From positions 1-25,908 of the IMG/VR virus record IMGVR_UViG_3300025326_000185: a stretch of DNA of 25,908 nucleotides, one strand, 5' to 3'. Source of the stretch: a virus. Positions 4,709-21,971 of the stretch are shown piece by piece. Every line of letters starts with the position of its first letter. Position 1 is the first letter of the stretch. Under the pieces are notes generated by a model that did not search any database, was not told the origin of the DNA, and saw nothing but the letters and a program-made list of their open reading frames with translations. The translations under genes were made by a program, and so were the position numbers.

Positions 4709-5000
4709 ATGCCACCGCCCCAACCAAAGCGCAAGATCGTCCTGCCAAGGGTTTCCTACGATTGCACGGTCAACGGCCCAGGCGTAGCCTCAGTGCATCG
4801 AACAGTCGGTTGACATCGTCCAGCTTCGCCTGCGGCTCAGGGTTCGTCCCGGCCGCTGCGAGGCATACGAGATCACCGACAACGGACCCAGGTTCCTGGG
4901 CGAGTGCGATTGGCGCGTGATGTGGCGCGCACTGTCGCAGCTCGTGGTGACCCAGGGCGGGGCGGGGAAGGAAAGGAAAGCAGATGGCCAAGTGCAGTGA
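4709..5000 (+). CDS. Small unknown protein, apparently split by a +1 frameshift
   Basis: ATG 4709 has GGGTGAG seven bases upstream. The first frame reads MPPPQPKRKIVLPRVSYDC and stops at 4811-4813. The frame one base ahead is open from 4788 to the stop at 4998-5000 and reads plausible protein (for example CIEQSVDIVQLRLRLRVRPG, then EAYEITDNGPRFLGECDW), but it has no usable start codon. Joined by skipping one base between 4788 and 4810 they give a 96-residue protein. This could be a true gene with an assembly or natural indel, or a programmed shift. An in-frame ATG at 4643 is an alternative start. The end overlaps the next gene by 17 bases. The family is not recognised. Confidence 0.4.
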
Positions 5001-5457: not shown

Positions 5458-5727
5458 ATGAGGGCATTCATTCCGTTCGGCCGCCGTGTCTTGGTCCGTG
5501 TTTCTGGTCCCGACGAGCTCACCCCGGGCGGGCTTCACATCCCCTCTGTGGCCCAAGAGGCCAAGCTGGAGGGTGTCGTCGTCGCGGTCGGGTCGGATAT
5601 CGAGGTGATCCGTCCCGGGCACCAGGTTCTCTTTGGACGGTTCAGCGGAACCGTCCTCACCGTCAACAACGAGACCCTGCGGCTCGTCCACGAAGACGAG
5701 CTACATGGAAGGTTCGAGGAGTCGTAG
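5458..5727 (+). CDS. groES: GroES-like co-chaperonin
   Basis: 89 aa, near the usual 90-100 aa of Cpn10. The start RAFIPFGRRVLVRV matches the first GroES strand. The mobile loop is DELTPGGLHIPSVAQEAK, where LHI takes the place of the GroEL-contacting IVL triad. The core EGVVVAVG, then RPGHQVLFGRFSGT, and the C-terminal LRLVHEDELHG are characteristic. ATG 5458 is chosen because GGAGG (5448-5452) lies five bases upstream. In cells, Cpn10 caps the GroEL chamber. Phage versions (the T4 gp31 fold analogue is the classic case) retarget host GroEL to fold large virion proteins. No GroEL is encoded in the window, so it probably works with the host chaperonin. Confidence 0.85.
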   Translation: MRAFIPFGRRVLVRVSGPDELTPGGLHIPSVAQEAKLEGVVVAVGSDIEVIRPGHQVLFGRFSGTVLTVNNETLRLVHEDELHGRFEES

Positions 5728-5730
5728 ACA

Positions 5731-5988
5731 ATGAAAACCCCCCTTCTCTGTCTTGTGGCCGTCCTTGGTTTCTCCTCCGGCGTTGGGTGTCAAAGGGCCG
5801 TCAAGATGGAGGAGGGGGGTAATGCCCGGTGCTACTACGACGAGACGCTGATCTTCAACGGACAGATCACCTTGGTCGGAGAGGGAGAGGTCAACTTCTC
5901 TGAGACCCTAACCGGCATTCATCGGCTGTGCTCGGACTCGGCGGTGTGGTGTCAGATAGACTTCTCCCCCAAGGGGGACGCCAAGTGA
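5731..5988 (+). CDS. Small exported or lipoprotein-like protein
   Basis: 85 aa with a short Lys N-terminus, a hydrophobic core (LLCLVAVLGF) and SSGVGC with Cys20. This is lipoprotein-signal-like, but Gly at -3 is atypical of a lipobox, so plain Sec export is also possible. The mature part is small and acidic, with Cys pairs (ARCYYDE; HRLCSDSAVWCQ) that could form disulfides outside the cytoplasm. It starts three bases after the GroES stop. A role in lysis, superinfection control or envelope interaction is possible, but nothing specific is visible. Confidence 0.6.
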   Translation: MKTPLLCLVAVLGFSSGVGCQRAVKMEEGGNARCYYDETLIFNGQITLVGEGEVNFSETLTGIHRLCSDSAVWCQIDFSPKGDAK

Positions 5989-6296
5989 GCGGCGGATCGT
6001 ATGGCTACGGGTATCGGTACCTCGCCGACCTAGCCGAGGAGGTCCAACGGCGGGCGCTAGGCAAGAAGAACTGGCAGACGCGCCTCGCGTTTGCTCGCCT
6101 CCTCTCTTTGTGTGCCCTGGCGGCGCATGCTCTGGAGTGGGTGGACTCTGGCGATTATGCCGCCGGTGACGAGGACGCCCCCATTCTGGCCGCCTTGGGA
6201 TCCCAGGCCGCCGATATCGCTTCCTCGGCAGACAAGATTCGTCGAGCCGCGGAGGCCCTGGTTCCGGAGTTGGCCGGCGAGGAGCCCCGTGGCTGA
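5985..6296 (+). CDS. Unknown small helical protein
   Basis: 103 aa from GTG 5985, which overlaps the previous stop (GTGA) and has GGGGG about ten bases upstream. It starts MSGGSYGYGYRYLADLAEEV and continues as mostly helix: NWQTRLAFARLLSLCALAAHALEWVDSG, then a long Ala-rich helix DIASSADKIRRAAEALVPEL. The central hydrophobic helix is interrupted by charges, so it is not a clear membrane span. The family is not recognised. It lies directly upstream of the SVxx repeat cassette, and its final codons carry that cassette's first ribosome site. Confidence 0.65.
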   Translation: MSGGSYGYGYRYLADLAEEVQRRALGKKNWQTRLAFARLLSLCALAAHALEWVDSGDYAAGDEDAPILAALGSQAADIASSADKIRRAAEALVPELAGEEPRG

Positions 6297-6414
6297 TCAA
6301 GGAATCCGATCCGTCTGGGGCTCCGTCTGGGACTCCGTCTGGGGCTCCGTCTCGGACTCCGTCTCAGCCCCCGTCTGGGACTCCGTCTCGGAGTCCGTCC
6401 GGGAGGCCCCATGA
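6289..6414 (+). CDS. SVxx tetrapeptide-repeat peptide, copy 1
   Basis: 41 aa from GTG 6289, with GAGGAG upstream and an overlap with the previous gene. After VADQGIR come eight tetrapeptides of the form [S/P]-V-[W/S/R]-[D/G/E/A], ending in AP-stop. Each tetrad is one 12-bp DNA unit. The stop lies in ATGA with the next copy. Function unknown. Repeats of this period leave several frames open on both strands, so coding status rests on the conserved start/stop junctions and the tetrad pattern. Confidence 0.45.
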   Translation: MADQGIRSVWGSVWDSVWGSVSDSVSAPVWDSVSESVREAP

Positions 6415-6775
6415 AGGCACCACTGGAGTCCGTCTGGGAGTCCGTCTCGGGCTCCGTCTGGGGTTCTATCTGGGATTCCTTCTCGGCCTCCGTCTCGGAC
6501 TCCGTCTCGGAGTCCGTCTCGGAGTCCGTCTGGGACTGCGTATGGGATTTCCCCTCTGACCAAATCCGGGATCTCGTCGCGGTCTCCGTAAAGGAGATTC
6601 CATGAAGGCACCACTGGTCTCCGTCCGGGCCTCCGTCTGGGCCTCCGTCCGGGACTCCGTCTGGGACCCCGTCTTGGCCTCCGTCCGGACCTCCGTCCGG
6701 ACCTCCGTCTGGGAGCCCGTCTCGGCCTCCGTCTGGGACTCCGTCTGGGTCTCCGTCTCGGACTCCGTCCGGGAG
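6310..6775 (+). repeat. 12-bp tandem repeat array (consensus TCCGTCTGGGAC)
   Basis: About 31 near-perfect 12-bp units in three blocks: 8 units (6310-6405), 10 units (6429-6548) and 13 units (6620-6775). The first six bases, TCCGTC, are nearly invariant. Variation is concentrated at positions 7, 8, 11 and 12. The blocks are separated by a conserved junction containing ATGAAGGCACCACTG. The array is unlike any other part of the window in composition and order. Confidence 0.95.
6411..6605 (+). CDS. SVxx tetrapeptide-repeat protein, copy 2
   Basis: 64 aa, starting MKAPLE at an ATGA overlap with copy 1. Ten tetrads follow (SVWE SVSG SVWG SIWD...). Then a degenerate part (FPSD QIRD LVAV SVKE) keeps the four-residue rhythm although its DNA has drifted from the 12-mer: mostly aliphatic at position 2, small or basic at 3, mostly acidic at 4. 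That suggests selection on the protein, and so real coding. It ends IP-stop, again in ATGA. A repeated valine every four residues would give a slowly twisting amphipathic helix or an extended strand; the structure is unknown. No known family is recognised. Confidence 0.5.
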   Translation: MKAPLESVWESVSGSVWGSIWDSFSASVSDSVSESVSESVWDCVWDFPSDQIRDLVAVSVKEIP

Positions 6776-6784
6776 ACCCCATGA
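6602..6784 (+). CDS. SVxx tetrapeptide-repeat protein, copy 3
   Basis: 60 aa, starting MKAPLV at an ATGA overlap with copy 2. Thirteen uninterrupted tetrads follow (SVRA SVWA SVRD SVWD PVLA SVRT ...), then TP-stop. More Arg appears here than in copy 2 (which is acidic/Ser-rich), so the two products would differ in charge. The stop overlaps a fourth ATGAAGGCACCACTG junction. Its order, spacing and ends match the other copies, so duplication of a whole cistron is likely. Function unknown. Confidence 0.5.
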   Translation: MKAPLVSVRASVWASVRDSVWDPVLASVRTSVRTSVWEPVSASVWDSVWVSVSDSVRETP

Positions 6785-6855
6785 AGGCACCACTGGTCTC
6801 GGGCATCACGCAGCGCACGGCGATCAAGCGGCAAGAAGAAGAAGGAGAAGCGACT
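6781..6855 (+). other. Truncated fourth copy of the repeat-cistron start
   Basis: ATG 6781 begins with the same 20 bases as copy 3 (MKAPLVS), then departs from the repeat and runs in frame (GITQRTAIKRQEEEGEAT) into the gene at 6856. It looks like a remnant of a further copy joined to the next gene. It might be translated as an N-terminal extension through the ATGA coupling. Confidence 0.5.
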
Positions 6856-9127: not shown

Positions 9128-9544
9128 GTGATCTATGTCGCCGGACCGTACTCGGCGCAGACCAAGGCGGGGGTCCTGGCCAACATCGATCGCGCCATGG
9201 CGGCCGGGGCAGAGCTTGTGTGCCGCGGGTTCGCCGTCATTGTCCCCCACTTCTGGGGGCTGTCTGGCGCCGTGGCCAATGTGGACTATGAGGGCTGGAT
9301 GTCGCGCGACTTCGCCATCCTCGAGAAATGCGACGGACTCTTCTGGTTGCCCGCCCTCCCCGCGACCGCAACAACCGCGCCTGAGCCGAGCCCGGGGACC
9401 GCTCGAGAGCTCGCCCTCGCCCGCTCGTTGGGAATCCCTGTGTTCCGCCATCTCGACAGCTTCTCGCACTACGATTGGAGCACAAGAGCCCCTGCCGGCG
9501 TCGTGTTGCGCCCGTTGCGGCGCAGCCGCAAAGCCCGCCTCTGA
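9128..9544 (+). CDS. DUF4406 / nucleoside deoxyribosyltransferase-like protein
   Basis: 138 aa. IYVAGPYSAQTKAGVLANID, then AMAAGAELVCRGFAVIVPHFWG, and CDGLFWLPALPA with a later REL and LGIPVF, are the pattern of the DUF4406/nucleoside 2-deoxyribosyltransferase-like superfamily. These act on nucleoside or nucleotide derivatives; activity here is not proven. I chose GTG 9128 because relatives begin right at the IYVAGP strand. ATG 9029, with GAAGGAG upstream, is an alternative that would overlap dnaB by 92 bases and add a basic leader. Its 3' end overlaps the terminase gene tail to tail by 76 bases. Confidence 0.7.
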   Translation: MIYVAGPYSAQTKAGVLANIDRAMAAGAELVCRGFAVIVPHFWGLSGAVANVDYEGWMSRDFAILEKCDGLFWLPALPATATTAPEPSPGTARELALARSLGIPVFRHLDSFSHYDWSTRAPAGVVLRPLRRSRKARL

Positions 9545-11430
9545 TCTCTGGCAATCTTCTTCTTCACTGCGGCCTGGAGCCACGGGTCAGCCCCGGCGTT
9601 CCTCGTTGCGGCCTCCGCGTCGGCTTTGTCCGACAGGTCGCGGAGCGCCATGATCGGGGCAGCCGCCTTGAAGTGAGCATAGACGGCCAGCGCGGTGGCG
9701 ATCACGTAGTCATCGGTCTCGCCAGACGGGTGCGTGAGTCGGCCGTTCTCGTTGACGAAGATCTCGTGTTGTCGTATCCCCTCGACCGTTCGCAGCGAAA
9801 GGCCGCGATCCTGGATCAGTTGCTGAGACATTGAGATGATCAACGCCTTCGTGTGCGCGTAGGTCTTGAATCCGGGTGTGAACCCGTCGTCCTCTGAATT
9901 GTCCACGCGCTCCTCATTTTTGCGGTGATACATCGGAGAGGTGTGGAGCTCAACCAGGCGCTGGCACGTCGAATTGCCCGGGTAGTTACCCTCGCAGCAC
10001 ACGTAGGCGTCTCCGTATGTCTTGTGCAGCCAATGGATGATGTCTCCGAAGTCCCGGGTGTGCGGCTTGCCGGCGAAGCGGGCGACCTCGATCAATCGCG
10101 TCCCGTCGGTGCGGTCGAAGACGATGGCGACAGAGAGATCCCCGTCTGATGCGTCTGTCTTGCCGGTGGCCACGTCGGCGCCGATGATGTACTTACGCTC
10201 CGGCTTCGGCTTCTCCCATATCACTGTCTGGGCCGCCGCCTCCCGGTTGGCGCGCGCAGGCATCTGGAGCACGTGCTTGCGGTCATCTACCACCAGATAC
10301 CCACACCACTCGGGCTTGGCCTTGTCGGCCTCCATGCGCATCGCCTTTAGGGCCCCCGGTGCGAAGATCGAGTTACCAGACCCGACGAACGCCTCCTGTG
10401 GCTCAGACGGGTACTCCTGGCGGAAGAAGTCCTCCGGAGACATCTTGCCCTGTTCAGAGCACTTCGTCTGGATGGTGTGGCGGCGCCAACGGAGCTGCTC
10501 CATCGACAGGCCGAATCGGCTCACGAGCTCGGTTTCGATGTCGTCAAGGTTCTGCTTCATCCACGCGGCTTCGTCCTCCGATACCGGCAACCGGTAGTGT
10601 GGATCTTGCCACCACGCCCAGAAGAACCTGAACTTGCCGTTCCAGTCTCCGGGCGTCCTTCCGGTCTCCTTCCAGCACTTGTAGACCTCCTCGAATGACA
10701 GCGAGCCCTGCACGGAGGCGTAGAAGGAGGCGTCGTGTCCGTTGGCGGTGGACTCCTCGAAGCAGTAATGATCGGGCATCATGGCGTTCTTCGCCGCGCT
10801 GATCGCGTCCGCGTTCGCGAAGTGGGCCACCTCCGACAGGTGGGTGAAGTCCAGGTCGTACCCGCGAGCCACGCCTTCGTCTTTGCCCACGGTGACGATC
10901 ATTCTGGAGTCCCACGCAGGCTCGTCCTCGGCGTCGCCCATGGCCCACTCCAGCCCATCCCCGCTCGATTTCTTCATCGGGACCTTGTGGAAGGCATATT
11001 CCTGGGGCCAGGCCAACACGAATCGCTGAGCGATCTTGCCGATGTTCTGCGCCCCGTCCTTCCTGTGGGCCATCAAGAGGGCGTTCGTGTGCGGGGAGAA
11101 TTCGCACAAGTGAAAAGCTAACGCCTCGATGTATGTGGACATTCCCTCCTTTCTGGGCTTCAGCACGACGACGTCCACCGGGAGGTGAGACACCTGCACA
11201 GTGGGGTCTTCCTTCGCCCTCGCCGAAGTGCGCTCGAGGTTGAACGCTTCGATCATTTCGACAAGCCGATGTAGGGACTCTTGGGCCGGGTTCAGGACGA
11301 GCGGGACCAGCTTGGTGGCGGCCGGATCCCTGGATCGCACCCGCAACACGTCGGCGAAGAACCGTCGACGGTCTCTACGCCATTCGTCGCGTTTGGCCTG
11401 GACCGACTGGATGCTCGCCTTGTCTGCCAT
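9469..11430 (-). CDS. terL: Terminase large subunit
   Basis: 653 aa. The ATPase half has a variant Walker A, KPRKEGMST (91-99), a Walker B, DLDFTHLSEVA (192-202, catalytic Glu200), and FEESTANG (224-231), a coupling motif. The nuclease half has GADVATG with Asp419, CCEGNYPGN with Glu480, and DDYVIATA with Asp573/574, the RNase H-like metal triad. The enzyme cuts concatemeric DNA and pumps it through the portal. Unusually it is on the strand opposite the other virion genes, between the replication block and the portal operon. No small terminase could be identified nearby. No strong ribosome site precedes ATG 11430. Confidence 0.93.
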   Translation of the reverse strand: MADKASIQSVQAKRDEWRRDRRRFFADVLRVRSRDPAATKLVPLVLNPAQESLHRLVEMIEAFNLERTSARAKEDPTVQVSHLPVDVVVLKPRKEGMSTYIEALAFHLCEFSPHTNALLMAHRKDGAQNIGKIAQRFVLAWPQEYAFHKVPMKKSSGDGLEWAMGDAEDEPAWDSRMIVTVGKDEGVARGYDLDFTHLSEVAHFANADAISAAKNAMMPDHYCFEESTANGHDASFYASVQGSLSFEEVYKCWKETGRTPGDWNGKFRFFWAWWQDPHYRLPVSEDEAAWMKQNLDDIETELVSRFGLSMEQLRWRRHTIQTKCSEQGKMSPEDFFRQEYPSEPQEAFVGSGNSIFAPGALKAMRMEADKAKPEWCGYLVVDDRKHVLQMPARANREAAAQTVIWEKPKPERKYIIGADVATGKTDASDGDLSVAIVFDRTDGTRLIEVARFAGKPHTRDFGDIIHWLHKTYGDAYVCCEGNYPGNSTCQRLVELHTSPMYHRKNEERVDNSEDDGFTPGFKTYAHTKALIISMSQQLIQDRGLSLRTVEGIRQHEIFVNENGRLTHPSGETDDYVIATALAVYAHFKAAAPIMALRDLSDKADAEAATRNAGADPWLQAAVKKKIARDQRRALRLRRNGRNTTPAGALVLQS

Positions 11431-11447
11431 TGGCTTGCCAGTATAGG
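11420..11447 (+). promoter_or_regulatory. Possible sigma70-like promoter before the portal operon
   Basis: TTGTCT (11420-11425), 16 bases, then TATAGG (11442-11447): a 4/6 match to each box. It sits in the divergent spacer at the terminase start and points at the membrane-protein/portal genes. TATAGG (11442-11447) and CCTATA (11454-11459) also form an inverted repeat, so this may be a hairpin or operator instead. Confidence 0.3.
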
Positions 11448-11471
11448 GGAAAGCCTATAGAGTTTTCCAGC

Positions 11472-11720
11472 ATGGCTTCACTCTTGGTCGTGGTGGTGAT
11501 CCTGGCTGTCTGCCTGCCCGTGACCGCCGCCGTGGTTTCTCATTACCACGTGCTTGCGATTGAGTCCTTCCACGCACACATCAAGGAGACGCAGATCGTC
11601 GGCGGAGAGCTGGCGGACGTCTACCGGTCGAAGGCGACGTGGCACATGCAAGAGGCCGAGAAGGAAACCGAGCGCCGGCATAGGCCCCGCGTGGTCGATC
11701 CTAGGCAGGTGATCTCGTGA
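11472..11720 (+). CDS. Small membrane-anchored protein
   Basis: 82 aa from ATG 11472. The N-terminus is a strong hydrophobic segment (LLVVVVILAVCLPVTAAVV), then a long charged helix (HIKETQIVGGELADVYRSKATWHMQEAEKETERR). This is the shape of a type-II single-span protein with a helical domain. It resembles the layout of i-spanins or phage membrane-associated accessory proteins, but no family match is claimed. It precedes the portal gene and overlaps it by GTGA, suggesting joint expression in late infection. An upstream TTG (11430) is possible but less likely. Confidence 0.55.
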   Translation: MASLLVVVVILAVCLPVTAAVVSHYHVLAIESFHAHIKETQIVGGELADVYRSKATWHMQEAEKETERRHRPRVVDPRQVIS

Positions 11721-13804
11721 CCAAGATCCCAGAGAAAAGGGCGCTCGAGCTCCTGGCTGTGGCCAAGGCCCGCTGTGAGGATGCCAAGATGGCGGTTCGG
11801 GATCGGATCGATCTGTGGCTGGAGCGCCTGGCCTTCATGCGCGGCTGGCAATACGCCGTTCGCGACGGCGCTTTCGTTGTGGATGATGACGCCTCAGGAG
11901 AGGAGCGCGAGGTTCACAACTACATCGGGACGTTTGTCCGGTCCGCCGTCGCCAACAGGCTCAAGACATTCCCCAACCCACAGGTTCCGGCATCCAGCGG
12001 AGACCAGCGGTCGATGGCCAAGGCCGACGCAACCGAGAAGCTGTTGGCATCCTTCATTGACGACGAGATCGTAAGCAAAGAGGAGATCATCCGGGCGTTG
12101 ACGTGGGCCGCCGCGGTTGGCGGCGCATGGGTGAAGTGCTACTGGGATCCCCACGCGGGCAGGCCTCTTCTCGAGGAGCCGTCGTTCATCGAGCGGCATG
12201 AGACCGACCCAGAGACCGGTGAGACCGTGGTCCAGTACGAACGAGAAACCGACGAATTCGGGGTCGAGATCTTCTCACGAGATTTCGAGGGCTCAATCAG
12301 GACCGAATTCGTTGACACCATAGACGCGCTTCCGGACCCGACGGCCAAGCGTGGATCAGAGATGCGTTTTTGGATCCACAGGAAACTGAGGCCGGTCTCG
12401 GAACTCGAGGCCAAGTTCCCGGTCGATTACGCTGGCAAGAAGACCAAAGGGCGGTTCGACGTTGGAGGGAAAGAGGTCGGCCAAGCAGAGAGGGACATGG
12501 TTGGCGGCGCTGAATCCATGTCGGTCGAGCAAAGGCACGACAACGAATCCCGCCTGGCTCACCTGTACGAGTATTGGGAGCCCGCCTCACCCGAGCGGCC
12601 CAACGGGATGTTCTTGGCGTGGTCGAATGATGTGATCGTGGCCATTGGGGCTAACCCGTACAGGCCCGCCCGCATTCCGGCCGTTCTGTTCCTCGGCGAC
12701 AATCTCGTCCCGTCCGGGCTGTACGCCGATGGCGTCGTGGAGCCGTTGATCCCGCTTCAGCGTACGTTGAACTCGCACGAAAGCATGAAGAAGGAATGGA
12801 TCAAGGCGCTCTACAGCCCGAAGATCCTCAATCCTATCGGGTCGATGGTTGTGGCCGACGACTTCGGCGATCTGCCGTCCGTGATCGACCACGCCCCAGG
12901 CCTGAAGCCCTCCCCGATGCAGGTGCCGGACATGCCATCCGCAATGTTCGAGGCCGCCGCCGAGCTCGTGTCGCGCATGAAGGAGATCAGCTCCTACAGC
13001 GACATCAGCCGCGGCGACGTCCCGCAAGGGGTGGAGTCCGGCCGCGCAATCGCGTTCCTTCGCGAGAACGAGCAGACCATCCGTGAACCGGACATGCTCC
13101 TTCATCGATCCGCCTGTCTGTCTATCCTGCGTCACTGCCTGTGGCTGGCCAAACAGTTCTACCACGAAGATCGGGCCATCAGGACCATGGGAGACGACGG
13201 ATGGGAATACTTCATCTTCAAGGCCGACGATTTCGACTGGTACGCCGACCTAGCCCCGGAGGCCTTCTCCGGTGCGCCCAACTCTAGGGCCTTGCGGTGG
13301 GCGGAGACCGTGGAGGCGTTCACGGCCGGCCTATTCGACGACGAGAACCCGGCGGCCAAGAAAGCGCGTCGCATGCTCGAGCTCGATCACGCCAACAGAA
13401 GCACGGTGGATCCGGACCGCACATCCAGGAGGCTGGCACGAATGGAAAACCTACAAGCCATCGAGCTGGCGGCCGGTCGAGGCCAATGGATCAACGAGGT
13501 CCGCGAGTTCCACGACGACAAGCTACATCTTGAGGAGCACAACGTCGTGCGCAACAGCCCGATCTACTTGGCGTGGCCCCATGAGGTCCAGGCGGCCTTC
13601 GATCATCACTGCGAGAACCACGAGGGCAACCTAGAGGCCAAAGAAGGCCTTGTGGCTGGCCAGCAAGACCCGGCCGCCATGAACGCCAAACCAGGCCCAC
13701 CCCCTGCCCCGATGGGAGCAGAGTCGCCAATGGCCGGCGGCCATTCAGTCGGAGAAGCAGAGCCGGCAAGCCAGGACGAATTTCTCTCTGGCCGGGCCAG
13801 TTGA
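11717..13804 (+). CDS. Portal protein (P22-like)
   Basis: 695 aa, close to the P22 portal (725 aa). It begins with a charged helical stretch and a YLxFMxGxQW-like segment (ERLAFMRGWQYAVRDG), then VHNYIGTFVRSAVANRLKTFPNP, VGGAWVKCYWDP, and the later GLYADGVVEPLIPLQRTLNSHES and YSDISRGDVPQGVESGRAI, all typical of podoviral portals. Twelve copies form the ring through which DNA enters and leaves and to which the terminase and neck proteins bind. The C-terminus is Pro/Ala/Gly/Met-rich. GTG 11717 overlaps the previous stop. The gene is followed by a promoter-like element and the scaffold gene, the usual portal-scaffold-capsid order. Confidence 0.88.
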   Translation: MTKIPEKRALELLAVAKARCEDAKMAVRDRIDLWLERLAFMRGWQYAVRDGAFVVDDDASGEEREVHNYIGTFVRSAVANRLKTFPNPQVPASSGDQRSMAKADATEKLLASFIDDEIVSKEEIIRALTWAAAVGGAWVKCYWDPHAGRPLLEEPSFIERHETDPETGETVVQYERETDEFGVEIFSRDFEGSIRTEFVDTIDALPDPTAKRGSEMRFWIHRKLRPVSELEAKFPVDYAGKKTKGRFDVGGKEVGQAERDMVGGAESMSVEQRHDNESRLAHLYEYWEPASPERPNGMFLAWSNDVIVAIGANPYRPARIPAVLFLGDNLVPSGLYADGVVEPLIPLQRTLNSHESMKKEWIKALYSPKILNPIGSMVVADDFGDLPSVIDHAPGLKPSPMQVPDMPSAMFEAAAELVSRMKEISSYSDISRGDVPQGVESGRAIAFLRENEQTIREPDMLLHRSACLSILRHCLWLAKQFYHEDRAIRTMGDDGWEYFIFKADDFDWYADLAPEAFSGAPNSRALRWAETVEAFTAGLFDDENPAAKKARRMLELDHANRSTVDPDRTSRRLARMENLQAIELAAGRGQWINEVREFHDDKLHLEEHNVVRNSPIYLAWPHEVQAAFDHHCENHEGNLEAKEGLVAGQQDPAAMNAKPGPPPAPMGAESPMAGGHSVGEAEPASQDEFLSGRAS

Positions 13805-13829
13805 CGGGTAAACCCCTTCGGGATAAACT
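13801..13829 (+). promoter_or_regulatory. Sigma70-type promoter upstream of scaffold and capsid genes
   Basis: TTGACG (13801-13806, 5/6 to consensus), a 17-base spacer, and TAAACT (13824-13829, 4/6). This is the best bacterial promoter match I found. Transcription would start near 13836, giving a leader of about 95 bases with a CGGG-gaaaa-CCCG hairpin (13842-13854). It would boost the most abundant virion genes downstream. Confidence 0.5.
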
Positions 13830-13930
13830 CTCCACGTGTTTCGGGGAAAACCCGCAAGACTGGTGCGTCAATCCAGGCCCCGATCCGTCTCCATCGAGCG
13901 TACCGCGTCAAGGCGTAGGAGTGTTTCACA

Positions 13931-14854
13931 ATGAGTCTGTTCCCTCCGGCAAGCACAACCAATTCACCATCGACGGGCCTGGCTGATTACAACCGGGACG
14001 CCGGCGGAGGGCCCGAGCCAAGCGCAGGGCAGGAGGCCGATCAGGTCTTCGAGGTTGGCGAGGCGGAGGAGCAGGAAGCCGAAACCACCAACCAACCAAA
14101 CCGGACCAACGGAGAGGAAGAGGTCGGCGAAGAAGGGCAGAACGTAGGGGCAGATCAAGAACCAGAGGAGACAGAGCAGCGACAGGCTCCCGGGCGCGCG
14201 GATAAGCGCATCCGGCAACTTGTCGGCGAGAAGAAGCGGCAAGAAGAGGAGAACGCCTCGCTGCGTGCGACGTTGCAGGCCCTTCAGGAGCACATGCGAG
14301 AGCAGGTGGCCTTGGGCCGGGAGCAGTGGAACGCCCAGAGGCCGTTCGTCGAGCAGCAAAGGACACAGCAAGGGAAGACCGAGAAGCGGCAGAAGATGCT
14401 GGAGCTCGGCTTCGACCCGGCGGACTACAAGGACCACGCCTTGTATGACGCACTGCAAGAGAACGTCCAGATGCGATCCGAGCTCGGCGAGGTCCGAAAG
14501 ATGTTCGAGGAGACGAAGCACGAGAAGCAGATGCGCGCCTACTCGGAAGACTTGTCTCGCCGGATCACGGCCGAGCTGGAGGGCTATGACGTCTCCAGTG
14601 AGCATCTCGCCAGCATCCAGGAGCAGGCCATTGAAAGCGCGGTAGCCAAGGGGCTGGACTCAGCACAGGCCGCCGCGACTGTGGCGACCAGGGTCAAGCC
14701 ATTCCTCAGGAAGAGATCTGCAACCACCAAGCCGAAACCGACCGGAGGGGATGTCCACGGGGTCATCTCTACGAGCGGCCGGAGCGGAGGCGAGGGGACG
14801 TCCCGAGCCAAACCCTCCACCTTCGACGAAGCCTTGAAATCTCTGTTTGGGTAG
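13931..14854 (+). CDS. Scaffold protein
   Basis: 307 aa, close to the P22 scaffold (303 aa). The first ~100 residues are acidic and disordered (Glu/Gln/Asn-rich). Then a long coiled coil follows (EKKRQEEENASLRATLQALQ, EQWNAQRPFVEQQRTQQGK). The C-terminus is basic and Lys/Arg-rich (RVKPFLRKRSATTKPKP), as expected for a capsid-binding tail. Its position right before the capsid gene supports the call: it would direct assembly of the procapsid and then leave. GGAG lies about ten bases before the ATG. The family match is by architecture and context, not by motif. Confidence 0.8.
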   Translation: MSLFPPASTTNSPSTGLADYNRDAGGGPEPSAGQEADQVFEVGEAEEQEAETTNQPNRTNGEEEVGEEGQNVGADQEPEETEQRQAPGRADKRIRQLVGEKKRQEEENASLRATLQALQEHMREQVALGREQWNAQRPFVEQQRTQQGKTEKRQKMLELGFDPADYKDHALYDALQENVQMRSELGEVRKMFEETKHEKQMRAYSEDLSRRITAELEGYDVSSEHLASIQEQAIESAVAKGLDSAQAAATVATRVKPFLRKRSATTKPKPTGGDVHGVISTSGRSGGEGTSRAKPSTFDEALKSLFG

Positions 14855-14875
14855 AAAGAAGAAAAGGAACACACC

Positions 14876-16246
14876 ATGGCATTGACGGATACCAGCGGAA
14901 TCGCAGGACAAAGCAGACTCTCTTTCCAGGGACGGCTCAAGACCGAATTCCTGCCCAAGTGGGATGATCACGTCCACAAGAAGACCAAGGTCGCCGAGAA
15001 GATCGCGAAGAAGAAGGGCACCATGGGTGGCCTCGAATCGCTCGGGTCCGTGATGGACGCCCTCCCCCAGAGCGCAGGGATCGCGCTGCTTGAGGGGCAC
15101 GACCTGCCGAATCCTACCGTGGGGTCGTATTTCCAGCCGAAGCTCCATTCGCGTTCGATCTACACCCGACTGCGCTGGACCGGCCATGTCGAGCGAGCCG
15201 CCCGGAAGGGCGACAAGCACGCATGGGCCAAGCCGCGCGCAGAGGACATGAAGGCCGCGGACGAGCAGATGCGACTCAACTTCGCGCGCATGCTGTACCT
15301 GGGGCCGTATCAGGCACTGGCTTGTGTCAGCTCGTTCAACGACACCACCGACAAAGCAACGCTGTACGGACGGGACGCCCGGCGCAGCGCGGCCGCGGAT
15401 CTGTGGAAGTTCGGCGCGCACTACTTGCGCAAAAACATGGAGATCGACTACGTCACCGCCCTGGCCACTGGTGCGGCCGTGATTGAGAACGACGACGCCA
15501 CCCAGGCCGCGATCAAAATCACGGCCATCGACAACTCGTCGTATGCGGCCCCGACGATCACGTTTTCACTGGATCCCAACGCCGCTTATGGCGTGACCGA
15601 TCCCGCCGACGGCAATCTGATCATCCCGTTCGGATCTCGTCTTGCAACCGGCCCCACCGCCGACGACGTGACGAAGTTCGCCGGGGTCAACGGACTCCTC
15701 CAGATGGTCGGTGATCGAAACATCTACACCTACCTGTACGACCTCCTCCGCGAGACGTACCCGACGCTCGAGGGCATCCGGAACACGAATGCCGGCGTTG
15801 CTCGTCCGTTCGCCGAGGACTACCTCACCCTTGCCATCGACCGGATCGCGGACGAGGGCGTAGGCGAGGAGCCGGGAGTCATTCTGTGTGACCGTTCTGG
15901 GCGCAGGGAGTACCTCAAGGAGTCCAAGGGAGATCGTCGGTTCAAGGAAGTCCAGACCGAGAAGGGCTTTGGCCAGCTCGTATTCCATGCGGGCGACGCT
16001 CAGACCCCGATTGTCACCGACCGGGACTGCCCGCCGGGGATCTTCTTCATTCTCGATGACAAGGGCTTTGGATGGCTCGAGGAGTCGAGCCTGGGTTCGG
16101 TGGATGAGCAGGCCGAGCGGCCGGTCACAAACAAGGACGCCCACGAGATCGTGTTGCACAAGTCCGGCAACGTCTTCACGGAAAAGCCGTTCAACAACGG
16201 CACCCTCGAAGACGTCTCGTTCTTGACGCGCGACATCGTGGCGTAG
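14876..16246 (+). CDS. Major capsid protein
   Basis: 456 aa, after the scaffold and before the neck genes, with a purine-rich ribosome site (AAAAGGA) upstream, consistent with high expression. The N-terminus (KTEFLPKWDDHVHKKTKVAEKIA) and SYFQPKLHSRSIYTRLRWTGHVE are typical of long-arm capsid proteins. The interior has mixed alpha/beta sequence (LRETYPTLEGIRNTNAGVARPF, GVILCDRSGRREYLKESKGDRR) compatible with the HK97 fold. It would form the icosahedral shell. Called by position, length and composition; no short signature motif marks this family. Confidence 0.85.
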   Translation: MALTDTSGIAGQSRLSFQGRLKTEFLPKWDDHVHKKTKVAEKIAKKKGTMGGLESLGSVMDALPQSAGIALLEGHDLPNPTVGSYFQPKLHSRSIYTRLRWTGHVERAARKGDKHAWAKPRAEDMKAADEQMRLNFARMLYLGPYQALACVSSFNDTTDKATLYGRDARRSAAADLWKFGAHYLRKNMEIDYVTALATGAAVIENDDATQAAIKITAIDNSSYAAPTITFSLDPNAAYGVTDPADGNLIIPFGSRLATGPTADDVTKFAGVNGLLQMVGDRNIYTYLYDLLRETYPTLEGIRNTNAGVARPFAEDYLTLAIDRIADEGVGEEPGVILCDRSGRREYLKESKGDRRFKEVQTEKGFGQLVFHAGDAQTPIVTDRDCPPGIFFILDDKGFGWLEESSLGSVDEQAERPVTNKDAHEIVLHKSGNVFTEKPFNNGTLEDVSFLTRDIVA

Positions 16247-16266
16247 GCTGGAGCAAGGAGGTAAAG

Positions 16267-17013
16267 GTGAGCTTTAGAAAACTGATTCCCGCGTGCCTTT
16301 TGGTTCTGGCTCTCCCGTCCCCGGCCTCGGCCAAGGTAGGGAGCCGGAACCTGGAGTTCGCGCTCAAGACACATCAGTTCTGCGCGTTGGTTGATTACCC
16401 TGAGAGCGCCACTGTCGTTCAAGGCGAAAATGGGGTGTTGGCCAACATCATCCTTGCGGCGTACGTGGACGACGGAGCGCAAACGCAGACCTCGTCAATC
16501 GTCCAGCCCATCACTCCGATGAAGCTGCGCGTCGAGATCGAGGACGACGGGGGCGCCACGACCCCCGCTCTGACTTGTTCGGTGCAGATCTTCGGCTTGG
16601 ACCAGTTCGGCGGCGCCATCAGCGAAACGGTGTCTGCCTCGGAAACCGCGGCAACAACGGTCAACGTGTATTCCAAGATCACCAAAATTAGCACCGTCGC
16701 CGGAGCGTGTGTGGCAGCGGCCGACACCTCCGACTATCTGCTGGTCAACCAGTCCCTACAGATCGGCCTTGGGCGCAAAATCGGGGCCACGTCCGACGTT
16801 GTGATGGCCTGTTTCGTTGACGACCCGGACGGGACGGCGGACACCAAGTGCTCGCCCTACGATATCGGCACCGATGACTCAATCAGCGACATCGTATCGG
16901 TGAGCACGCACAGCATTGACTTCTCTGTAACCGCATTCGGTCCCGTGGGCGGGAGCGAGGTTGCGGCAACAGACGGAGACATCCTCTGTGTGCGCGTGGT
17001 CCCGTCGATCTAG
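16267..17013 (+). CDS. Sec-signal-bearing beta-rich protein in the capsid cluster
   Basis: 248 aa from GTG 16267, with a near-perfect AGGAGGT ribosome site. It starts with a classic Sec signal peptide: MSFRK, a hydrophobic stretch LIPACLLVLAL, then PSPASA with cleavage after Ala22. The mature part is Thr/Ser/Val/Asp-rich and looks like beta sandwich repeats, with several Cys (TCSVQIFG, VAGACVAA, VMACFVDD, TKCSPYD). It sits exactly where a head decoration or head-completion protein is expected, but a signal peptide is odd for a virion protein assembled in the cytoplasm. It could be an exported moron-like protein, or a decoration protein whose N-terminus only resembles a signal. Family not recognised. 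Confidence 0.7.
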   Translation: MSFRKLIPACLLVLALPSPASAKVGSRNLEFALKTHQFCALVDYPESATVVQGENGVLANIILAAYVDDGAQTQTSSIVQPITPMKLRVEIEDDGGATTPALTCSVQIFGLDQFGGAISETVSASETAATTVNVYSKITKISTVAGACVAAADTSDYLLVNQSLQIGLGRKIGATSDVVMACFVDDPDGTADTKCSPYDIGTDDSISDIVSVSTHSIDFSVTAFGPVGGSEVAATDGDILCVRVVPSI

Positions 17014-17067
17014 CCCCACCCGATAGGGGTTGCCCGCTCCATCCTCCTGCTGTAGTGTTTGCCCCAC

Positions 17068-18036
17068 ATGGGCGCATCTGTCCCGATCCCTGTCAACCTG
17101 GACAAGTCAGGCGGGCGCACCCAACCCGGCGTAATCCCGTCCATTAGGCGCGAAGCGCACTGGCAGCTCTACGCCAACGTCGATCCGGACGTCATGCACC
17201 GCTCCGACCCGGCCCCCTCTCACATCCAGAGGGCCATGGAGGAGGTCTTCGGCACCGAGCGGCTGAAGGACGTGAAGCTGGCCCGTCACCCGCTGTTGGG
17301 GTACTGGAGCCTGTGGGAGCGAGTCCGCAACCCAGAGAGCGGCCAGGTCGGCGGATATCGACTGGTCTCGATGTTCTACAGCCAGCCGGTGGACGGGTAT
17401 CTCCCACAGCACCTGCGCGGGAACAAGTGGACCGCACATCTTACCGGACAGGTGGGTGAGCCTCGAGAGCCGACGAGGCGTGACTTCGAGATCATCGAGC
17501 AATTCGACATCAAGAAGTACGGCTACGAAGCGGTTGAGAACCGGTACGCAGCCCCAGAGATCGAGGCAGAGCGCGAGCTGGAGCGCGTGTTCCATGACCG
17601 GATTGACGACTTCCTTGACTACCACTTTTGGCTTGCGATGCGAGACGCCCAGGCACACCACTCGCGCCCGTGGAGCACGCCCACCGTCGAGTACCGGCCG
17701 AACGGCCTGCGGTGGGCGCACATCAAGAAGGACGGGTACACGTTGAGGGTGAAATTCGGCAGCCGTGAGCACCGGCGGGAGCTGGAAGATCTGGTCACCC
17801 GTCTCGAGCACGACCGGGACGCATTCGAGTCCGCTCGTGGCCTTCGACGCGATTACGCCAGGGCCGACTACGAAGCCGAGATCCTGGCAACCCGCTCCCA
17901 GATCGATGTGGTCGAGCTCGAGGAGCAGGCCGCGCAGAAAACCCCTGAGATCAAGACCAAGGTCGCCGAGTGGCACTGTAAGGTCTCGAGGCTCGCCGCG
18001 ATGAACAAGGCAGTCAACGGGGGCGGGGGAGGCTGA
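17068..18036 (+). CDS. Unknown protein with C-terminal coiled coil
   Basis: 322 aa from ATG 17068; an in-frame TTG nine bases earlier is less likely. The first half is mixed, with Trp/Tyr/Arg-rich patches (HPLLGYWSLWERVRNPESGQ, VSMFYSQPVDGYLP). The second half is a long charged coiled-coil region (HRRELEDLVTRLEHDRDAFESA, RADYEAEILATRSQIDVVELEEQ) with a Gly-rich end. No motif or membrane segment is seen. It sits between the capsid block and the adaptor gene, and a weak TTGCCC-17-TAGTGT promoter-like element (17030-17058) precedes it. Role unknown; a virion or assembly function is inferred from position. Confidence 0.65.
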   Translation: MGASVPIPVNLDKSGGRTQPGVIPSIRREAHWQLYANVDPDVMHRSDPAPSHIQRAMEEVFGTERLKDVKLARHPLLGYWSLWERVRNPESGQVGGYRLVSMFYSQPVDGYLPQHLRGNKWTAHLTGQVGEPREPTRRDFEIIEQFDIKKYGYEAVENRYAAPEIEAERELERVFHDRIDDFLDYHFWLAMRDAQAHHSRPWSTPTVEYRPNGLRWAHIKKDGYTLRVKFGSREHRRELEDLVTRLEHDRDAFESARGLRRDYARADYEAEILATRSQIDVVELEEQAAQKTPEIKTKVAEWHCKVSRLAAMNKAVNGGGGG

Positions 18037-18037
18037 T

Positions 18038-18955
18038 ATGTCGATCATCTACGCACCGACCGCTCCGGCGACACTGGCTTCAATGATTACCCGGATTCGA
18101 CGCATGGTCGGCGACACCGAGTCCCTGGCGGCCAACCGAAGATGGCAGGATGACGAGATCATCGACGCGCTCAACATGTCCATGGTCGAGATCGGCAACG
18201 CCCTGAGTCTCACACAGCCATCCCCGGCCCTCTCAAGCGAGAACATCACCTATACGGCCGACAGCGAGTCGGTGGCCCTCGGGACGTACACGGCGCATGC
18301 ACCGATCTTCCAGGTCGAGGACATTACGGACCCATTGCGGCCGGTGGTGATCGAGCAGGCCTCGTTCCGGGATCTGTCTGACTACGGCCTCGCCGGCGTG
18401 CCGGCCCTGTGGCGGTCTGTCTACGCCATCCATTCCGGCGGGATCTCGGTGCGACCGAAGCCGACATCGGACAAGCCCCTCCGAATCTGGTACGTCCAAG
18501 AGCCGTATGTCATCGGAGCAGAAGACGCTTCCCCGTCGGCCGTGTCGGTTGCAGCGAATGTTGCTACTGCCACCATAGGATCCGGCCATGGCTTTGTTGC
18601 GGGCATGCGGATCTCCACGGACGGGATGCTGTCCTCGGCCCCGGCAGAGGCCGACGTCTCGGACGTGGCCATTACATCGGTCACCGACACGACCATCATC
18701 TACCCATGCACAGCAGCCAACGGGGCGTTCACCGCGGTCGGAACCTTGTCGGCGAGCCGGCTCAACCGCGGCCCCGCCGGGGCGATGGCCGACGAGGTGG
18801 CCTGCCTGGGCGCCGCCATCCGGCTACAAGAGACCGATGTTGAGGCATCGCCGGCCAGGCTGATGCGTCATGAGAAAATGCTGTTTCAACTCGCAGGATC
18901 TGCGCGCCGCCTCCGTGGCCCGCAGCGGATCAGGCGTACAAGGAGGTTTGTGTGA
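18038..18955 (+). CDS. Head-tail adaptor (phage connector, P22 gp4/T7 gp11-like position)
   Basis: 305 aa from ATG 18038, just after the previous stop, with a G-rich ribosome site. The N-terminus MITRIRRMVGDTESLAANRRWQDDEIIDALNMSM is the characteristic opening of phage adaptor proteins (two helices that ring the portal). The middle adds a Thr/Ser/Ala/Val-rich insert (about 165-250) resembling an Ig-like domain, which makes it longer than usual adaptors. The C-terminus returns to helix and ends basic (RRLRGPQRIRRTRRFV). It would extend the portal ring and receive the nozzle. The first region supports the call strongly; the insert is a notable departure. Confidence 0.75.
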   Translation: MSIIYAPTAPATLASMITRIRRMVGDTESLAANRRWQDDEIIDALNMSMVEIGNALSLTQPSPALSSENITYTADSESVALGTYTAHAPIFQVEDITDPLRPVVIEQASFRDLSDYGLAGVPALWRSVYAIHSGGISVRPKPTSDKPLRIWYVQEPYVIGAEDASPSAVSVAANVATATIGSGHGFVAGMRISTDGMLSSAPAEADVSDVAITSVTDTTIIYPCTAANGAFTAVGTLSASRLNRGPAGAMADEVACLGAAIRLQETDVEASPARLMRHEKMLFQLAGSARRLRGPQRIRRTRRFV

Positions 18956-19467
18956 GAGTATACTATACCGGGTCCGTCGAAGACGGCCCGCGCGTGGTCG
19001 AGTATGGCGGCGAGGAGCTTGTCTGGGCTCCGGCTGGATTCCAGATCGAGAAGAAGGACCTGCCGGTCAAGAGGGCGGACGGGACCGACTACGTCGTAGA
19101 ACACGCCATGACCGGCAAGAGGACCACCGTCATGCGGAAGCAGTGGGTGGTGCGGCGGAACGTGTCGGGTGAGCCCATGAGGTCCAACCAGAGCGAGTCG
19201 TTCCTGTCCTTGCCGGACGACGCCGCGCGAAATGCGCTGCGCCAGGTATGGAACGAAGACGGGAAACTGGTGCCGGAGTCCCGCTACAAGGCCAACAGGT
19301 CACCGGAGTTCATCGAGGCCGAGATCGAGAGGCTCAAGGCGGAGCTGGATCTGAGGCGCGGCCCGGATCCGCTCCTGTCTGCGCCCGCGGTCGACGACGA
19401 CTCGAAGCCAGAACGCAAGACCGCACGTGAAAGGCGGATTGAGAGGCTCGAGAGGGCTAGCGAGTAA
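18952..19467 (+). CDS. Unknown protein of the tail/neck cluster
   Basis: 171 aa from GTG 18952, overlapping the adaptor stop (GTGA) with AGGAGG five bases upstream. A beta-rich N-terminal third (VYYTGSVEDGPRVVEYGGEE, ELVWAPAGFQIEKKDLPV) is followed by a helical, charged C-terminus (ERLKAELDLRRG, KTARERRIERLERASE). The family is not recognised. Its location between adaptor and nozzle suggests a neck or accessory virion protein. The last two bases of its stop form a TAATG junction with the next gene. Confidence 0.65.
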   Translation: MRVYYTGSVEDGPRVVEYGGEELVWAPAGFQIEKKDLPVKRADGTDYVVEHAMTGKRTTVMRKQWVVRRNVSGEPMRSNQSESFLSLPDDAARNALRQVWNEDGKLVPESRYKANRSPEFIEAEIERLKAELDLRRGPDPLLSAPAVDDDSKPERKTARERRIERLERASE

Positions 19468-21971
19468 TGGCACGGCCTCTGCCCAGCGTTCCGCTGTCGC
19501 CGATGACGGGCGGCATAGAGCGCCGAGAGGCGAAGGCCAAGGGCCACCAGGCGGCCGAGGGCGAAAACGTCTACGAGACGAACGGAGAGATCCGGCGTAG
19601 AGACGCAATCGTAGCCCTCGCCGCCGGTCCCGTGTTCATGTACCCCGCCGAGCAGTGCGTGGTCATGGACTTCAACTACTCCACCGACACGTTCACCACG
19701 CATGCCGAGCGAAGGCCGTCCGTCACGACTGCGTTTTCTTCCACCCGGCTGCTCTTGATCGGCTGTACGTCGAAGTTCGACGGCGTCGATTGGGCGCACG
19801 TGGCCGAATCCGCAACACTGGCCGCCTCGTGGAGGCACGCCAAGATCAGCCGCGTGGCGGGATGGACCCCGAGCGCATCCTATGGCGGTCACACATCAGA
19901 CTTCGCGGCTCTGCCATGGGTCCTGGACTCCACGAAGCGCCGCTACGATGGCCGGGTGTCCTCGCTCCAGCGCACAGGCAGGATCGCCTGGCACTCCTCG
20001 GAGATGGTCGATTGGGAACCGGTGTCGATCAATTCTCTGTCTCTGTATTGGGTCGCGCTCGAGCTGACGGCCGAGCCACAAGACCCAGATAACACACCAA
20101 CCAGGGCCCCGGCGGCAGTGGCGGACGCGATCACGATTGAGAGGCCCGGGATCCGCGTTTTTCGGCACGGCAAAGTCACCGGCCTGGTCCCGGTGCGCGG
20201 CAAGGGCGACGCGTTCTTGTTGGTCATGTCCGAGCGCACAGGGCAGGACAGCGGAGGAGGCAAGTCCGCGACCACAAGGGGGCAAGAGAAGGGCGGCCAG
20301 ATCGGCGCCGTGCGCTCGGAATTCACCAAGACCGAGGAGCTTGGCATCGTCGAAGACGAGGGCTCCGGAACGGCGGGCGAGGTCGCTGGACCGTCGTGGA
20401 ACACCACTCCCCCGGGCGGGGCCTCGGCCAACGGAAGCTCTGGTGTCATTACCAAGAACGACGAGAGCTATTCATGGCTCACCGAGTCCGGGACCTATGA
20501 GGGCCAATGGGCCGGCCAGCCCATTCATTCAGACCTGACCCCGTCCGCTGGCTCCGCGTCTGGAGTGACCTTCGCGACACAGCTCAATCCAGAGAACAGC
20601 CTGGAAGACTGCGTGATCGAATGCACTCAGCGGGTCACCGGCCCGCTTGTTGGTGAGAAGAGAAGGATCGTCACCCATGCGGTGGGTGGCTCAACGACCT
20701 TGGCCGTGCATCCGGCCTGGTCCGCCACGCCAAACGCGAACAATCGGTTCAGGATCTTGGGCTCTCCGTTCTTCGCGCGCATCATTGAACCGCATGTAGA
20801 CGCCAACTCCTCTGCGAAGGCCATCGAGACCTTCGAGGTAGACTCCAGCGGGGAGCACATCCTCAACACCTCGCCAGCAGAGGCATACGGAGACCGACGA
20901 CGACTTGCGGATACGTCCCTCGACAGCAAGAACATCAACTTCGAGCTCGTGCGCGAGGCGCGGTTCGAGATGCAAGGGAATGCCCAGTGGTCTGCGTGCT
21001 GGGACACGATATCGCGCGAACACCTGCTTGCGTCTGGTGTGTGCGGCCCTGTGCGGTGGGACGGCCGATCCCTGCGCCGCCTCGAAGCCCTCGCGGATCC
21101 AGACAGCGCCATGGTGCAGATGTGGACCGGAGTCTTGCGCGACATGGCCCCAGAACAGAACACGCCAGATCTCACCCCGGGCTCTTTCCTTCGTAGCGAG
21201 CCACCGGCCGGTAGGTTCATCGTGGACTACTCTGGCCGTCTGGTGATCGCGGGCGTGTCGGCAGACCCCAACAGGATCTATTGGTCGGCCCCTGGCGGAG
21301 CGAACAACCTGTGGCCGCGGGTCTACGAGGCCCTGATCCGGGCCAACAGCAACCAGCCAATCGCGGGTATGAGGGTCTTCGGCGGCGAGCTTGTTGTGTG
21401 GACGCCCTCGCAGGTCTTCTCGAGCGGCCCGCCTGACAATGAGGGCATGTTCTACTTCGCTCCCAAGTCTTCCGGTGTGGGGTTTTCCAATCACGCAGGG
21501 GTGGGAGAGCTCTCCTACAGGGGCCAGCCGGTCTTGATCGGCCCGAACCCGGATGGAGTGTACGCCTACGCCGGGACCGAGCTCGTTGCTGTTCTCGATG
21601 ATTGGTCCGCGCTGTTGCCGGGCGGGGTCAACAAGGCCGGTCTGGACAGATGCGTTGCGGCTGTGTCGAAGTATGACACGATATACGCCCTCGCCGTCCC
21701 GTCAGCCGGAAGCAACGTGAACGACAGGATCCTGGTGTTCGATTACGTGGACCGGACGTGGTGGGTCTGGACTGCGCCATTCGGCGGCGTCACATCCATG
21801 GCGGTGGATAGGGATTCGGCCGGCCGAGAACGGATCCTGTTCGGGACTTGGGACGGGTTTGTGTGCGAGCTCGCCGGACGTGAGACCGACGACGGCAGGG
21901 CGATCACCGGCCGAGCACGGAGCGTCCCGGCGCGTCCAGCGGCACACACCCACGCCTTCACTGGCCTTTGA
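19467..21971 (+). CDS. Tail nozzle / beta-propeller stabilisation protein (P22 gp10 / T7 gp12-like)
   Basis: 834 aa, near T7 gp12 (794 aa). The N-terminal part threads through the adaptor ring (RREAKAKGHQAAEGENVYETNG). The main body has a long run of propeller-like strands; the C-terminal third shows the recognisable order LVIAGVSADPNRIYWSAPG, FGGELVVWTPSQVF, GVGELSYRGQPVLIGPNPDGVYAY, and NDRILVFDYVDRTWWVW. It would form the hexameric tail nozzle that closes the DNA channel. The C-terminal cap found fused in related proteins is here encoded by the next frame. TAATG joins it to the preceding gene. Confidence 0.75.
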   Translation: MARPLPSVPLSPMTGGIERREAKAKGHQAAEGENVYETNGEIRRRDAIVALAAGPVFMYPAEQCVVMDFNYSTDTFTTHAERRPSVTTAFSSTRLLLIGCTSKFDGVDWAHVAESATLAASWRHAKISRVAGWTPSASYGGHTSDFAALPWVLDSTKRRYDGRVSSLQRTGRIAWHSSEMVDWEPVSINSLSLYWVALELTAEPQDPDNTPTRAPAAVADAITIERPGIRVFRHGKVTGLVPVRGKGDAFLLVMSERTGQDSGGGKSATTRGQEKGGQIGAVRSEFTKTEELGIVEDEGSGTAGEVAGPSWNTTPPGGASANGSSGVITKNDESYSWLTESGTYEGQWAGQPIHSDLTPSAGSASGVTFATQLNPENSLEDCVIECTQRVTGPLVGEKRRIVTHAVGGSTTLAVHPAWSATPNANNRFRILGSPFFARIIEPHVDANSSAKAIETFEVDSSGEHILNTSPAEAYGDRRRLADTSLDSKNINFELVREARFEMQGNAQWSACWDTISREHLLASGVCGPVRWDGRSLRRLEALADPDSAMVQMWTGVLRDMAPEQNTPDLTPGSFLRSEPPAGRFIVDYSGRLVIAGVSADPNRIYWSAPGGANNLWPRVYEALIRANSNQPIAGMRVFGGELVVWTPSQVFSSGPPDNEGMFYFAPKSSGVGFSNHAGVGELSYRGQPVLIGPNPDGVYAYAGTELVAVLDDWSALLPGGVNKAGLDRCVAAVSKYDTIYALAVPSAGSNVNDRILVFDYVDRTWWVWTAPFGGVTSMAVDRDSAGRERILFGTWDGFVCELAGRETDDGRAITGRARSVPARPAAHTHAFTGL

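Follow-up and report, generated by a model that had tools for sequence, protein, structure and literature searches.

Tailed-phage assembly is taken as cytoplasmic, and the products of genes next to the capsid gene are often classed as virion proteins on position alone. The closest described counterparts of the protein presented here are the decoration proteins Soc and Hoc of T4, gpD of lambda and Dec of phage L, which in several phages are encoded in or near the head genes and which, according to studies of T4, lambda and phage L, can attach to completed capsids in vitro. To our knowledge, however, these proteins stay in the cytoplasm throughout and carry no signal peptide, unlike the protein encoded at our locus. 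Another counterpart is the antiholin RI of T4, a lysis regulator whose gene, in contrast to ours, is not known to lie beside the capsid gene. As described in PMC8385771, RI has a cleavable Sec signal peptide, like the one predicted below, and is released to the periplasm. We found no exported head protein of a tailed phage in the literature, which is weak evidence of absence given that most subscription journals fell outside the coverage, and the accessible parts of PMC3338817, PMC6102473, PMC5723332, PMC7344957, PMC3606486 and PMC5567305 mention none. They do report two and one predicted signal peptides in two Bacteroides phages (PMC5723332) and one phage signal peptide, on a cell-wall hydrolase (PMC7344957). 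The locus analyzed here encodes, together with the capsid, a protein whose probable destination, the cell envelope, is unusual for such a product.

The gene behind the capsid gene

The window, that is, the whole stretch of DNA analyzed, is a 25,908-base linear virus record with a P22/SU10-like head module. Its terminase gene (9469-11430) lies on the minus strand and is followed by the genes for the portal (11717-13804; Pfam P22_portal, 2.8e-13), a scaffold-type protein assigned by position (13931-14854) and the major capsid protein (14876-16246, plus strand; PHROG major head protein, E 6.7e-13). Directly 3' of the capsid gene, after a hairpin-free gap of 20 bp, is the gene of interest (16267-17013, plus strand), here referred to as the SP gene for the signal peptide of its product, which opens with GTG and encodes 248 amino acids (aa). 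Downstream follow a gene for a 325-aa protein (17059-18036, plus strand), whose TTG start is uncertain and which comes next in both relatives introduced below too, the SU10-type head-tail adaptor gene (18038-18955, plus strand; Pfam PF24175 SU10_adaptor, 31.8 bits with a cut-off of 27), a gene for a 171-aa protein and the gene for a stabilisation-type protein (19467-21971) that owes its name to a homologue in phages from Manatee Spring. The first-pass annotation had placed the SP gene between the capsid and adaptor genes; the capsid side of this placement was correct, but the gene of the 325-aa protein intervenes before the adaptor.

The ribosome binding site AAGGAGGT (16255-16262, plus strand) ends 4 bases upstream of the GTG. 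Its pairing energy (dG -12.7) was the lowest among the 20 window genes tried, with the 171-aa gene (-12.1) and the adaptor gene (-11.3) close behind, in a ranking for which several start codons were picked by us. We therefore favour the GTG at 16267 over the later in-frame starts, which are TTG at codons 12 and 41 and then others.

Relatives and gene order

A capsid search of IMG/VR yielded a 30,689-base contig, IMGVR_UViG_3300030397_000751 (L010), which encodes, directly after its capsid gene, a homologue of 245 aa with an ATG start and 38% identity (L010:9411-10148). When the window and L010 proteins were compared by tblastn with 50,697 phage records at E 10, two matches were obtained, both of them Manatee Spring phages, ctsm1931 (MW202658) and ctSAF950 (MW202622). 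Their homologue, annotated as a hypothetical protein and identical between the two, has 268 aa with an N-terminal insertion just after the cut site, and is 30% identical to the window protein overall and 32% over residues 59-223. Six Xanthomonas and Aeromonas phage records that matched the Manatee query in tblastn at E 2-8 over 22-27% of its length were taken as noise. A local tblastn (E 0.01) of all three homologues against 28 loci and the window placed the gene only in the window, in L010 and in the two Manatee records, and the L010 protein had no match among 72,556 plasmids. IMG/VR viral contigs were scanned with the SP protein and its homologues and with the capsid, stabilisation, portal and terminase proteins, and genome contigs with stabilisation and portal alignments, the SP protein itself not being a query there. 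These scans gave L010, one very distant terminase relative (L028) and pieces of the window's own phage (L009, L011, L020, L022 and L024-L026), which stop short of the SP gene. In L028, a 226-aa gene after a capsid-like gene has no signal peptide by eye, and no homologue was detected after the capsid gene of Shocker, Jasmine or ctLwi270, whose capsid proteins are related. The distant set also included sequences of the portal relatives DS1 and ctEqG8 but neither MT836150 nor seven of the eight Arthrobacter records.

All three lineages share the gene order portal, scaffold type, capsid, SP protein, 325-aa type, adaptor and stabilisation, and L010 has an additional ORF (11221-11643) ahead of the adaptor. 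The terminase gene lies opposite to the head genes in the window and in L010 (2699-4594, minus strand) and on the same strand in the Manatee phage. Identities to the window proteins in L010 and Manatee, respectively, were 48 and 24% for the portal, 29 and 23% for the scaffold type, 55 and 25% for the capsid, 38 and 30% for the SP protein, 33 and 26% for the 325-aa type, 38 and 19% for the adaptor and 38 and 33% for the stabilisation protein, which indicates that the SP protein diverges at the pace of its structural neighbours. Like the window protein in position, signal peptide and six cysteines, the Manatee homologue differs in its insertion and in a displaced last cysteine. The L010 homologue shares position, peptide, six cysteines and a mature start (KIGLRNLE) with the window protein, whereas its ATG start, its weaker ribosome binding site and the strong hairpins that flank its gene set it apart. 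The earlier suggestion that a strong ribosome binding site argues for abundant synthesis is fair for the window and for the Manatee Spring phage (-12.1), but the site is unremarkable in L010, where the SP gene has -7.3 versus -6.8 for the phage's own capsid gene.

A predicted signal peptide kept in three lineages

The N terminus of the SP protein reads MSFRKLIPACLLVLALPSPASA and continues, after the predicted cut, with KVGSRNLE; it carries R4 and K5, approximately 11 uncharged hydrophobic residues and A-S-A at positions 20-22. We evaluated it by a sequence rule of our own, not SignalP, that demands a positive n-region, an uncharged h-region and small residues at -3 and -1, and obtained a Sec/signal-peptidase-I type peptide of 22 residues (16267-16332, plus strand) cut between ASA and K. 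The first-pass annotation, which had proposed a Sec signal peptide with an ASA site after residue 22, was thus borne out, with a score of 5.19 and equivalents kept in both relatives; of the coordinates given there, 16267-16335, the start is right, but the peptide ends at 16332, and 16335 takes in codon 23. The score was the highest of the five flagged among 164 six-frame window ORFs of at least 60 aa, and shuffles of the protein scored at least 5.0 in 3 of 20,000 cases and reached any passing score in 342-355 of 20,000. Four of 26 plausible window genes were flagged, the other three being an 85-aa ORF of lipoprotein-like character, a small membrane protein encoded ahead of the portal gene and a weak 588-aa ORF that scores 2.23 when read from a TTG. 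A twin-arginine motif is absent from the N terminus. We also considered and rejected a lipoprotein processed by signal peptidase II: C10 stands in a poor lipobox (I-P-A-C) after too short a hydrophobic stretch, and, as judged by eye, no lipobox is kept, with L-L-V-C13 in L010 and no cysteine in the Manatee peptide.

The positive n-region, the short uncharged h-region and the A-x-A box that characterize Sec/signal peptidase I substrates were found in the window and in both homologous lineages. The L010 peptide, MKKLALISALLVCVSSTAFA followed by KIGLRNLE, scored 5.06 (none of 20,000 shuffles at 5.0 or above), and the Manatee peptide, MKLTTWLGLLITAVFLAFTVGAHA followed by APPGG, scored 5.00 (3 of 20,000). 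Each homologue was the top match of its own locus, in which one of 58 ORFs (L002, Manatee) and three of 53 (L010) were flagged. Only 7 of 20 signal-peptide letters in L010 and 6 of 22 in Manatee are identical to the window, while the n-h-c plan is retained, as expected under selection on export; across the cut site itself, AKVGSRNLE in the window matches AKIGLRNLE in L010. Loss of the hydrophobic segment in relatives, named beforehand as a finding that would speak against export, was seen in neither lineage. The rule flagged none of the terminase, portal, scaffold-type, capsid, adaptor and stabilisation proteins of the window, Manatee and L010 and none of 11 other late genes of L010. When it was applied to 40 genes around the capsid in Shocker, Jasmine and ctLwi270, the genes of DS1 and ctEqG8 being left out, one was flagged (L006:9241-9735). 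Collectively, these features suggest that the SP protein is very probably sent via Sec and cleaved.

Cysteine pattern of the mature protein

The predicted mature protein (16333-17010, plus strand; stop codon 17011-17013) has 226 aa, a mass of 23.3 kDa, a pI of 4.1 and six cysteines, and contains no transmembrane-grade segment (best 19-aa hydropathy, 1.16). Six cysteines are present in each of the three mature homologues, at intervals of 65-44-34-13-46 in the window, 62-44-35-12-45 in L010 and 65-44-33-15-32 in Manatee. Four of the five intervals thus agree within 3 residues across all three proteins, and the last one deviates in the Manatee phage (32 versus 45-46). Cysteine accounts for 18 of 695 residues in the homologues, whereas 24 terminase and structural proteins from these phages contain 83 in 11,338 residues; the odds ratio is 3.6 (p 1.7e-5 by Fisher's test), although the homologues are not independent samples. 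Conserved and even in number, the cysteines are consistent with disulfide formation and therefore with an oxidising compartment, and the signal peptide and the cysteine pattern together fit a predicted course of export, cleavage and disulfide bonding.

Pfam had no match for the SP protein, and the weak matches in PHROG and NCBIfam (E of 0.02 at best) were to families whose function is unrelated or unknown; the best E value of the PDB profile search was 0.87. In none of these four collections did we obtain a sequence match to a known decoration protein, the kind of product that the first-pass annotation had offered, with an unusual route, as one of its two candidates. Two AlphaFold models of two sequences each, with the Manatee homologue left out of the input, had mean pLDDT values of 42 and 34 and were mostly strand, otherwise uninterpretable and too poor for a fold search.

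Proposed role of the probably exported protein

As there is no fold or family match, the choice between a role in the virion and one in the envelope has to be made from gene position, synteny and composition, and on these we lean toward a virion surface protein that joins late, with a protein acting in the envelope as a close rival. In the preferred reading, the protein encoded directly behind the capsid gene would pass the Sec translocon, signal peptidase I would cut it after Ala22, and oxidation outside the cytoplasm would join its six cysteines in up to three disulfides. Late in infection, a soluble, acidic 23-kDa protein would then build up at the surface of the cell or in its periplasm. 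Because an exported protein would be outside the cytoplasm during head assembly, binding to the virion needs an extra step after lysis: the protein would take no part in building the head and would bind finished particles once lysis mixes the compartments. The ORF, the rule-based signal peptide and its conservation, the cysteine pattern and the synteny are established here; from these we predict expression alongside the capsid gene late in infection, followed by export, cleavage and disulfide formation, and virion binding is the least certain link. The whole chain from export to virion is therefore proposed tentatively. If the SP protein does reach the virion after lysis, phages would gain disulfide-stabilised surface proteins by this route.

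It is also quite conceivable that the exported late protein is retained at the cell surface or in the periplasm, where it might block superinfection, tune lysis or mask receptors, the progeny thereby being spared loss on debris. The evidence for export serves this possibility as well as it serves the virion. Sim of phage P1 and Lom and Bor of lambda are examples of such proteins. Genes acting in the envelope are, however, usually patchy in distribution and in many cases expressed early or during lysogeny, whereas the place of the SP gene beside the capsid gene is kept in three of three lineages and its divergence is like that of structural genes. The PADLOC collection of defence systems, which need not hold exclusion proteins, returned no family for any of the three homologues at E 0.1. 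A point in favour of this possibility is T4 RI, a phage protein whose Sec signal peptide has been demonstrated to be cleavable (PMC8385771). A conserved, apparently exported and cysteine-patterned protein encoded beside the capsid gene implies that position is an unsafe guide to a virion role.

Transcription context and base composition

The gaps between the capsid and SP genes are tight and hairpin-free both in the window (20 bases) and in the Manatee phage (24 bases), which fits a shared capsid transcript in these two lineages. Between the SP gene and the next gene, the window has a weak RNA hairpin (17011-17032, plus strand) without a U-run that scores no better than shuffled sequence (z +0.5). 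At the same place, directly 3' of its SP gene, L010 has a strong terminator-like stem, GCCCCUCGGGUGGCC pairing with GGUUGCCUAGGGGGC, with six U after it (-25.3 kcal/mol over the folded stretch, z -2.5); the Manatee hairpin at this place is weaker than that of L010 and has no U-run (z -1.5). A second L010 hairpin, with a UUCG loop and no U-run, separates the capsid gene from the SP gene (L010:9348-9410; -26.4 kcal/mol, z -3.0). Only 1 of 200 shuffles was as good, and the hairpin, which might be an attenuator or a processing site, is absent from the window and Manatee gaps. Both L010 hairpins were missed by a pattern scan and revealed by RNA folding. With strong hairpins on either side, the L010 SP gene may form a separate unit. 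A promoter scan of window positions 13,800-18,200 found a single promoter-like site (0.5 expected) at 13801-13829, before the scaffold-type gene, and none beside the SP gene; in L010 and Manatee, promoter-like sites were as frequent as expected (6 versus 6.2 and 2 versus 1.8, respectively). Rfam (gathering threshold) and tRNA scans of the window gave no match.

These data bear on the proposal of the first-pass annotation that the protein might be moron-like, and on the reading that its gene is a moron gained as cargo for lysogenic conversion. The export signal would suit such a gene, as would the strong hairpins before and after it in L010 and the lack of a detected homologue in distant relatives. 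A tyrosine integrase (L020:2436-3551, minus strand; Pfam 7.6e-13) is encoded on L020, a piece 100% identical to the window in the capsid protein (first 169 residues) and the portal protein, and because of it the window phage may be temperate. A foreign base composition as the mark of a moron was looked for and not found: the GC content of the SP gene (0.605, 0.493 and 0.551) tracks that of the whole sequences (0.633, 0.473 and 0.555) in the three lineages, in the same order. A recently acquired moron is thus disfavoured by base composition as well as by synteny, and the proposal is further weakened by divergence like that of structural genes, by a position kept across divergent phages and by the want of a promoter-like site adjoining the gene in the window; what still speaks for it is the pair of hairpins in L010 and the absence of a detected homologue in the distant relatives. 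The upstream hairpin of L010 slightly lowered the weight that we give to the virion chain and slightly raised that of a moron, which nonetheless is improbable. It is likewise improbable that the hydrophobic N terminus goes unused for export and forms an arm on a head protein of the usual cytoplasmic kind, as the position of the gene and the normally cytoplasmic nature of tailed-phage virion proteins would have it. Against this reading, three of three lineages have a complete n-h-c arrangement with a correctly spaced A-x-A box despite diverged letters, the conserved cysteines suit an oxidising compartment, and the rule did not pick out any of the terminase and structural proteins listed above for the window, Manatee and L010.

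Further predicted signal peptides in the late regions of relatives

Of 46 Manatee genes tested (44 of the 55 annotated coding sequences, the other 11 being short, and two ORFs chosen by us), three were flagged, namely the SP homologue and the neighbouring genes L014:27753-28379 and L014:28381-29280, whose products have nine and six cysteines, respectively, signal peptide included. A third Manatee protein, within 29594-30580, was flagged when read from an internal start (L014:29723-30580). Two genes of the L010 contig were flagged as well: L018:1456-2097 is weakly similar to L014:27753-28379 (E 2e-4 in a two-sequence comparison), and L018:2099-2959, which has a Laminin_G_3 domain (7.5e-8), shares short similarities with L014:28381-29280 (E 0.002). 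In ctLwi270, a podophage from the same spring, the flagged gene mentioned above (L006:9241-9735) encodes a 164-aa protein, and L006:1686-2477, annotated as concanavalin-like, has a signal peptide-like start by eye that the rule did not flag. We count these additional proteins in favour of the preferred reading of the SP protein. The window ends at 25908, before the region that matches these extra genes. A rather speculative extension would be that the tailed-phage virion is completed outside the cytoplasm, by disulfide-bonded surface proteins whose genes adjoin the capsid gene and which are exported via Sec, fold and become oxidised in the periplasm and coat particles only at lysis; this is on balance doubtful, but if true, the laminin-G-type and cysteine-rich late proteins with signal peptides in the relatives would belong to the same virion-completion system.

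Other features of the window

A GroES-like co-chaperonin is encoded at 5458-5727 (plus strand; NCBIfam E 6.6e-14, under the curated cut-off). Directly after it, at 5731-5988 (plus strand), is the 85-aa ORF with the lipoprotein-like signal peptide MKTPLLCLVAVLGFSSGVGC, a second candidate for an exported protein of this phage. In all three lineages, a small protein with one hydrophobic segment, at its N terminus, precedes the portal (window 11430-11720, plus strand; L010, approximately 4634-4864; L014:10690-10968). An RNA ligase of the DRB0094 type lies at 2075-3070 (plus strand; E 4.4e-35, under the curated cut-off). Finally, low-complexity repeats of the ESVWESVSGSVW and DGVPDGGPDG types, open in several frames on both strands, occupy approximately 6155-6800, and a stretch resembling them is found at L020:5601-6056.
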